64,000 nucleotides of DNA from Haloferax marisrubri (GTDB taxonomy: Archaea > Halobacteriota > Halobacteria > Halobacteriales > Haloferacaceae), in contig NZ_LOPW02000022.1 in the NCBI RefSeq assembly GCF_001469875.2, positions 11,829-75,828 of the forward strand, written 5' to 3'. Position 1 is the stretch's first letter, and each line of letters starts with the position of its first letter. Shown here one piece after another: positions 25,527 through 55,476 of the stretch. The position numbers and the translations under genes are program-made. Under the pieces are notes generated by a model. That model was given only the letters and a program-made list of their open reading frames with translations, was not told the origin of the DNA and searched no databases.

Positions 25527-25578
25527 CGCGCTGCTTGGAGTGTCGTTTTCAGGAGAATAGCGGGAGGTAGATTTGAAC
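25527..25578. repeat. Direct repeat copy 1 with tRNA-Met 3' end
   Basis: 52 bp, 49 of which match the copy at 25665-25716. Bases from about 25558 match the 3' end (acceptor and T arm) of the initiator tRNA at 25824-25898. A T-arm-derived hairpin follows: GGTAGATTTGAAC (25566-25578) against GTTCAAACTACC (25609-25620). Confidence 0.85.
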
Positions 25579-25664
25579 GACGCGACTCTCGCTTCGCTCG
25601 AGTCTCTAGTTCAAACTACCTGTTGCGATTACCACGGAAAACGGGCCGCCGCAGCGCGATAAAC

Positions 25665-25716
25665 CGCGCTGCTTGGGGTGTAGTTTTCAGGAGAATAGCG
25701 GGAGGTAGAGTTGAAC
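25665..25716. repeat. Direct repeat copy 2 with tRNA-Met 3' end
   Basis: Second copy, 138 bp from the first. It carries AGCGGGAGGTAGAGTTGAAC, one base off the tRNA 3' sequence. Its right part forms a hairpin, 25705-25721 against 25735-25749, again with T-arm-like arms. Confidence 0.85.
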
Positions 25717-25760
25717 CCCGGTCGCTGACGCTCCCCGGTTCAAATCTACTGCGCTATGAG

Positions 25761-25816
25761 GCTGACCTCGTGGGTCGCGCCGAGCCGAGACTCGGCGCTC
25801 AGGAGTTGAGGTCAGC
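25761..25816. repeat. Nested inverted repeat next to the tRNA
   Basis: Outer arms GCTGACCTC (25761-25769) and GAGGTCAGC (25808-25816) are perfect. An inner hairpin has arms GCGCCGAG (25777-25784) and CTCGGCGC (25791-25798) around CCGAGA. It could be a terminator for the tRNA, a structured RNA or a recombination site. Confidence 0.75.
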
Positions 25817-25823
25817 AAAACCA

Positions 25824-25898
25824 TAGCGGGAGGTAGATTTGAACTACCGATCTCCGGGTTATGAGCCCGGCGGAATCTCCTGGCTATCCCATCCCGCT
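25824..25898 (-). tRNA. Initiator tRNA-Met (CAU)
   Basis: 75 nt on the reverse strand. The 7-bp acceptor stem AGCGGGA/TCCCGCT, anticodon stem CCGGG/CCCGG around CTCATAA, and T stem GGTAG/CTACC all pair. Three G-C pairs flank the CAU loop and the 5' A1 pairs with U72, both typical of archaeal initiator tRNA. CCA is not encoded. No intron is seen. Confidence 0.93.
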
Positions 25899-55358: not shown

Positions 55359-55476
55359 CGCGGGAGCAGGGAGCAACGCGAAGCGTTGCGACCGAGTTCC
55401 CGCGTGATCGCCAGCGTCTGAGCCCGTAAGGGCGAAGACGTGGCGAGCCAACGAGACGAGCGCACGCGAGTCTCGT
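55359..55476. repeat. Cluster of three hairpins after aspS
   Basis: Three inverted repeats lie between the direct repeats. The first has an outer pair, 55359-55365 with 55398-55404, and an inner 7-bp pair GCAACGC/GCGTTGC (55373-55389). The second spans 55409-55445 (CGCCA/TGGCG plus CGTCT/AGACG with one bulge). The third spans 55451-55476 (ACGAGAC/GTCTCGT). The region is not coding. Confidence 0.8.

Follow-up and report, generated by a model that had tools for sequence, protein, structure and literature searches.

Tandem hairpin cassettes ending in tRNA-tail copies downstream of the initiator tRNA-Met gene of Haloferax marisrubri and of other haloarchaeal tRNA genes

In the 64,000-nucleotide stretch of Haloferax marisrubri DNA analyzed in this study (the window), the 3' end of an initiator tRNA gene occurs three times in close succession, which raises the question of how these repeats were formed and whether they are, as the original prediction held, the footprint of one departed element. 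Both ARAGORN and Rfam (RF00005) concluded that the single tRNA in the window is tRNA-Met(CAT), located at 25824–25898 on the minus strand, and Rfam identified no RNA family other than tRNA. The repeat unit consists of the last 21 nt of this tRNA (GTTCAAATCTACCTCCCGCTA, 25824–25844), which recur exactly at 25558–25578 and with one mismatch at 25696–25716; no further site was found in the 64 kb at up to five mismatches. The two partial copies of the 3' end of an initiator tRNA-Met that had been reported are thus real.

Read 5' to 3' on the minus strand, the order is tRNA, cassette A, cassette B and a truncated B-like trailer. Cassette A (25696–25823, 128 bp, non-coding) carries a hairpin 1 at 25762–25816, composed of the outer stem GCTGACCTC/GAGGTCAGC and an inner 8-bp hairpin, followed by a hairpin 2 whose 5' arm (GTAGATTTGAACC, 25738–25750) is the antisense of the T-loop and T-stem and whose 3' arm is the first tail copy (25696–25716), which starts at G53. 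Cassette B (25558–25695, 138 bp, non-coding) has a two-hairpin layout like that of A, with the 5' arm of hairpin 2 (GGTAGTTTGAAC) at 25609–25620, and ends in the second tail copy (25558–25578), beyond which lies the truncated B-type trailer (25527–25557). Each tail copy forms the 3' arm of a hairpin, opposite a 5' arm that is antisense to the T-loop, and a 12-nt inverted repeat was identified here. The original prediction's 52-bp direct repeats were reproduced at 25527–25578 and 25665–25716 (94% identity, three differences, spacing of 138 bp), and they correspond to the ends of cassettes A and B together with the start of the trailer after each. Their extension of 31 bp past the tRNA-derived part, which had been taken to exceed a simple att core, is present and is explained as the start of the following cassette's trailer.

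The cassettes identified in this study are mostly about 70–220 bp in length and non-coding, with no genes inside and two hairpins each; hairpin 1 is formed by an outer stem and an inner hairpin, and hairpin 2 by an antisense T-loop arm paired with the copied tail. The whole of cassette A folded with a z-score of -4.9. In an alignment of hairpin 1 of cassette A from 13 homologues, 8 of the 17 pairs had changed on both sides and 93.7% of the cells were paired, a value that no shuffle reached and for which slid controls gave 28–41%. Compensatory changes in a conserved secondary structure, as in a non-coding RNA family, are thus present, and template switching could be an alternative cause of this covariation. 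The inner hairpin could be aligned across Ser, Met and Asp cassettes, and trailers were more structured where a copy follows. The antisense arm was present in 40 of 41 class-2 cassettes and agreed with the T-stem of the cognate tRNA at 2.3 of 4 positions, versus 1.4 for other tRNAs. No clear extension of this arm into the acceptor was detected (2.4 of 7 positions for cognate and 2.1 for other tRNAs), and the cassette showed no terminal inverted repeat.

A census of tail copies was carried out, in one joint comparison, on H. marisrubri, a second Haloferax genome (G003), a genome of another family (G033) and an outgroup (G405). A tRNA was counted if its own last 14 nt, at two or fewer mismatches, recurred within 300 bp downstream, and the chance level was obtained by setting the tails of other tRNAs behind the same genes (swapped tails). 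Own-tail copies were found for 24 of 48 tRNAs in the window genome (0.3 expected), 26 of 52 in G003 (0.39 expected) and 22 of 44 in G033 (0.51 expected), the last count being possibly one too high because a Ser/Ala pair is one gene called twice. The outgroup had 2 tRNAs out of 45 with a copy (0.3 expected), and both were whole-tRNA duplicates. The census ruled out a restriction of the repeats to the initiator tRNA.

Computational searches for the hairpin pattern, defined as an antisense T-loop followed 15–40 nt later by a T-loop with no further requirement, found it in 144 of 391 Halobacteria genomes and in 52 of 86 genera, while the backward control gave no matches. In the phylum sample, the pattern was found in 21 of 53 members of the order versus none of 242 others, and it is confined to Halobacteria within this sample. 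Among 151 inspected matches, 113 were located within 700 bp downstream of a tRNA and represented 27 isoacceptors, and in most of these 113 the next 12–15 nt agreed with the acceptor strand of the same tRNA, although the pattern made no such demand. The remaining matches were mostly bacterial repeats, lay near contig ends or belonged to intron-bearing tRNA-Trp genes skipped by the length filter. Chance repeats were ruled out by the swapped-tRNA controls and the backward-pattern control. The repeats at the initiator tRNA are one case of a haloarchaeal pattern, which suggests repeated recombination aimed at tRNA genes. In an uncultured Armatimonadetes MAG (L132, L137, L166 and others), a 37-bp palindrome (GATTTGAACCTGCGCATGGGCACTAGAGGTTCAAATC) with matching flanks was seen on many contigs, with no tRNA found near.

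The initiator tRNA region was kept in all 14 congeneric genomes sampled and was recognizable in other genera. Most Haloferax genomes sampled have two initiator tRNA loci, one resembling that in the window and one on another contig, and the second locus matches loci on the H. gibbonsii plasmids pHGLR2 and pHG2. Variation among the arrays is in units of whole cassettes. The window has A-B-b, G003 and G001 have A-B-A', G004 and G007 have A-b, and locus 2 of G007 has B-A'; in G009, B-type sequence comes immediately after the tRNA. At locus 2 of H. gibbonsii, strain LR2-5 has B-A' and strain ARA6 has A-A', with near-identical sequence beyond both. In most Haloferax the initiator tRNA is followed by A-type cassettes, and four further genera (G020, G021, G027 and G038) have A- or B-like cassettes at this position. 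An element between the copies was looked for in initiator tRNA regions of about 10–20 kb from 15 Haloferax and several other genera, and only adjacent copies were found. In agreement with the reported absence of an integrase gene near the repeats, none of the integrases listed, a set that omits the weakest matches, lies within 10 kb of an initiator tRNA array. In G006 (L052, about 9.5–11.3 kb), a frame that by eye resembles an IS605-type TnpB follows cassette A of the initiator array, about 1.8 kb ahead of a degenerate tail copy. The junction of the apparent tandem initiator tRNAs in G002 and G008 (L038, L039 and L045) contains an N, and these tandems probably arose in scaffolding.

Alignment of orthologous loci at other tRNA genes resolved presence and absence of cassettes with base precision. 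At tRNA-Thr(ggt), G003 has the tRNA, 97 bp and the old trailer, versus the tRNA followed directly by the old trailer in G000; equally exact filled/empty pairs between these two genomes were identified at Glu(ctc) (121 bp), Val(cac) (140 bp) and Lys(ttt) (112 bp). The extra cassettes of G000 at Ser(cga) and Gly(ccc) are tRNA-proximal. Among 15 species, Ser(cga) arrays contain trailer modules X and Y and loops p, q, r and s in varied combinations. Between G000 and G003, the best match of a hairpin-1 module was at the same tRNA in 15 of 26 cases, and between families no tie to the same tRNA was seen among hairpin-1 modules. In G033, Leu(gag) and Val(cac) have a closely similar cassette in common, with acceptor ends that differ and are each cognate.

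The boundaries of the copies were sharp. Of the partial copies, 64 are longer than 16 nt, and every one of these has its start no more than 6 nt upstream of G53; complete tandem tRNAs aside, no copy starting deeper in the tRNA was found. Copies of a second class start at about T60, with a right edge that is less certain since shorter copies are harder to detect. The 7-nt T-loop is bounded by G53|T54 on one side and T60|C61 on the other. A review of tRNA-targeting integration (PMC8371274) pointed out a resemblance between tRNA stem-loops and the sites of tyrosine recombinases with their 7-bp overlap and core, named the T stem-loop among the regions used and cited SNJ2 sites of 13–14 nt, and a Haloquadratum prophage was described with a 22-nt tRNA duplication next to its integrase (PMC3119063).

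Genuine inserts carry tail copies of the same two lengths. At tRNA-Thr(ggt) of G004, a 12-kb insert lies in an island that has integrase hits and is closed by a 20-nt tail copy from G53 with one mismatch, and further inserts at tRNA-Thr(ggt) have longer tail copies at their ends. At tRNA-Arg(tcg) of G306, an 8-kb insert ending in a 13-nt tail is placed between the tRNA and two older cassettes (L415, about 9.7–17.7 kb); Pfam and PHROGs scans of its six longer frames identified no integrase, and one frame matched DUF4238. Hairpin 2 is absent next to the att of both large inserts, and on this ground a collapsed large element was rejected as the origin of the cassettes. Integration in Haloferax seems to be concentrated at tRNA-Thr(ggt), a hot spot with inserts of about 2–15 kb (L417 in G004, L418 in G012, L419 in G009, L420 in G006 and L421 in G001); several inserts have integrase hits, and two are in tandem in G004.

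In conclusion, these analyses showed that arrays of repeats and cassettes bound to tRNA genes occur clade-wide and have sharp boundaries, exact presence and absence and conserved folds. The array could have been built by site-specific recombination of non-autonomous cassettes at the T-loop, likely by tyrosine recombinases acting in trans, an explanation that we favor tentatively and rate as somewhat short of probable. Cassettes would enter and leave with the T-loop as the 7-bp crossover region, and catalysis in trans would most likely come from the type of tyrosine recombinase that puts viruses and plasmids into the same tRNA genes. Each insertion would keep the tRNA intact and push the old tail downstream, and the folded hairpin 2 may be the cassette's own recombination site. 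The cassettes would then behave as mini-elements that are not autonomous, somewhat as integron cassettes devoid of genes might. This reading is suggested by the copies at half of the tRNA genes of three genomes against 0.3–0.5 expected, by copy starts near G53 or T60, by the filled/empty pairs and the difference between the H. gibbonsii strains, by real inserts with the same two copy lengths, one of which has integrase hits inside, and by the antisense T-loop arm and its distribution in the clade. As in elements moved by tyrosine recombinases, a direct repeat of the tRNA 3' end, an edge at the loop crossover region and both filled and empty sites were found; an integrase in or beside the insert was not found, and the cassettes are too short to encode one. 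Tyrosine recombinases are present among the integrases listed. Phage records gave no match that would indicate a phage source, and haloarchaeal plasmid records matched at chromosome-like tRNA loci only.

Several observations argue against site-specific recombination at the T-loop in this form. No integrase adjoins the initiator arrays among those listed, and hairpin 2 is missing from the ends of the large inserts that were inspected. In addition, the copies are cognate despite shared inner modules, which argues against a simple attP model, since a donor with an attP would bring its own acceptor end. The cognate tails are awkward for such a model, and a mechanism based on target duplication may be considered instead. 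An enzyme of the Cas1 or casposase type inserting cassettes beside the tRNA would make the tRNA end a target-site duplication in a CRISPR-like array, with duplications that are always cognate, as observed, and with extra cassettes tRNA-proximal; furthermore, the A. boonei casposase recognizes the T-loop-like sequence TCAAATC, which precedes a duplication of 14 bp at the 3' end of a tRNA (PMC6614799). Nevertheless, the duplications made by casposons are located 3' of the T-loop motif and extend beyond the tRNA (PMC6977970), whereas the copies described here start at G53 or T60 and end with the tRNA. With neither terminal inverted repeats of the cassette nor a 14–15 bp duplication past the tRNA end found, the duplication window and the termini do not fit, and insertion of this type was rejected as very improbable.

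Alternatively, no dedicated recombinase may be needed, if homologous recombination, slippage and gene conversion between tails shaped the arrays and template switching at imperfect palindromes kept the arms complementary and cognate. This possibility deserves consideration but is rather doubtful. Trailer and loop modules assort freely at Ser(cga), the share of best hairpin-1 matches at the same tRNA implies that most change is local, Haloquadratum provides documented cases of deletion between repeats (PMC3119063), and two flanking tails suffice for exact cassette loss. Homologous recombination between 21-nt tails is therefore adequate for losses and shuffling, but not for the origin of the cassettes or the sharp 5' edges, and it leaves unexplained the uniform start at G53 and the single hairpin plan behind dozens of unlike tRNAs. 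The covarying stems of hairpin 1, the strong folding, the additional trailer structure where a copy follows and the A-type cassettes behind the initiator tRNA of several genera would be consistent with functional RNA trailers, in which hairpins 1 and 2 are transcribed with the tRNA for termination, 3' processing or as small RNAs. Such a function appears unlikely to account for the arrays, as gain and loss between congeners are fast, half of the tRNAs have no cassettes, Rfam identified no family besides tRNA, and covariation could be mimicked by template switching.

The model of the original prediction, in which the repeats are scars of larger elements that departed or were internally deleted, agrees with the copy lengths, which are those of att sites of real inserts, and with partial tRNAs reported at the ends of integrated elements in H. 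gibbonsii (PMC7921747). It is nonetheless improbable, because clean excision would restore one tRNA and leave no second copy, and because cassettes of similar size and structure occur at unrelated tRNAs while their hairpins are missing from large inserts. The footprint of one departed element is too simple an account of a locus whose cassettes have their own two-hairpin anatomy, recur in most Haloferax and have counterparts at about half of the tRNA genes. Recombination at tRNA 3' ends is at work, as had been proposed, and copies 3' of the tRNA that start at T-loop edges, exact filled/empty pairs and inserts with like tail repeats in the clade bear out the mark of integration; the locus is not the scar of a single element at the initiator tRNA. 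The antisense hairpin arms, the trailer nature of the 31 bp and the arrays at about half of the tRNA genes had been overlooked.

Among the known systems that most resemble the cassettes, inserts of tRNA-targeting tyrosine recombinases, such as SNJ2-type haloarchaeal integrases (PMC8371274), likewise target the 3' part of a tRNA, leave the tRNA intact and have a short tail repeat at the far end, with boundaries that fit the T-loop or a 13–14 nt site; in contrast to those inserts, the cassettes are small, gene-less, tandem and hairpin-bearing and occur at about half of the tRNA genes. Haloquadratum has PATEs and short mobile repeats (SMR; PMC3119063), which are also small (about 50–150 bp), non-coding, palindromic and haloarchaeal, but they have no target duplication and were not described as tied to tRNA tails. 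The arrays share with casposons and with Cas1-mediated CRISPR spacer acquisition a repeat-insert organization, a target by the tRNA 3' end and the T-loop-like anchor of the A. boonei casposase (PMC6614799), and differ from them in the duplication window, in having no terminal inverted repeats that could be found and in their gene-less inserts. Eleven partial tRNAs were counted in H. gibbonsii LR2-5, several of them directly beside a full copy, and the parts of that report considered here contain no hairpin anatomy, array concept or clade-wide survey (PMC7921747).

Integron arrays resemble the haloarchaeal ones in that their cassettes stand in tandem and terminate in imperfect inverted repeats whose loops vary, in the exchange of whole cassettes and in the addition of extra cassettes beside the primary site. 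A folded imperfect inverted repeat was likewise found at the cassette ends, with the antisense arm in 40 of 41 class-2 cassettes. The attC core is GTTRRRY/RYYYAAC, which the cassette arms GTTCAAA/TTTGAAC do not fit. Unlike integrons, the cassettes (71–220 bp) contained neither genes nor an attC core, no known integron integrase is associated with them, and the primary site is a tRNA. It is conceivable, yet hardly likely, that they form a gene-less integron-like system with tRNA genes as primary sites, in which a T-loop recombinase would add and remove folded non-coding cassettes next to the tRNA and the cassettes would serve the host, for example as decoys or spacers protecting tRNA genes from viruses and plasmids that integrate at the same T-loop.

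Our literature search found no description of tRNA-tail cassette arrays. If site-specific recombination at the T-loop is the correct explanation, members of a large archaeal class would bear, at about half of their tRNA genes, arrays of mini-cassettes that record repeated recombination at the T-loop, and these would offer a testable archaeal case of gene-less cassettes mobilized in trans and could account for many of the partial tRNAs in haloarchaeal genome annotation. In that case, a duplicated tRNA tail would also be a poor indicator of a lost provirus in these genomes.

A second family of hairpin-2 loops, with the conserved core TCGCGCGCAGCGAAGCGAGCACGT and short variable paired stems around it, was observed at L252, L257, L265, L269, L272 and other loci, behind several different tRNAs in other families of the class. 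In the window, a cassette-like hairpin loop (GGGAGCAACGCGAAGCGTTGCGACCGAG) was identified at 55362–55396 in a palindrome with different arms and no tRNA near. This loop motif occurs at eight sites in the genome, and all except the one at 55362–55396 are located directly downstream of a tRNA.
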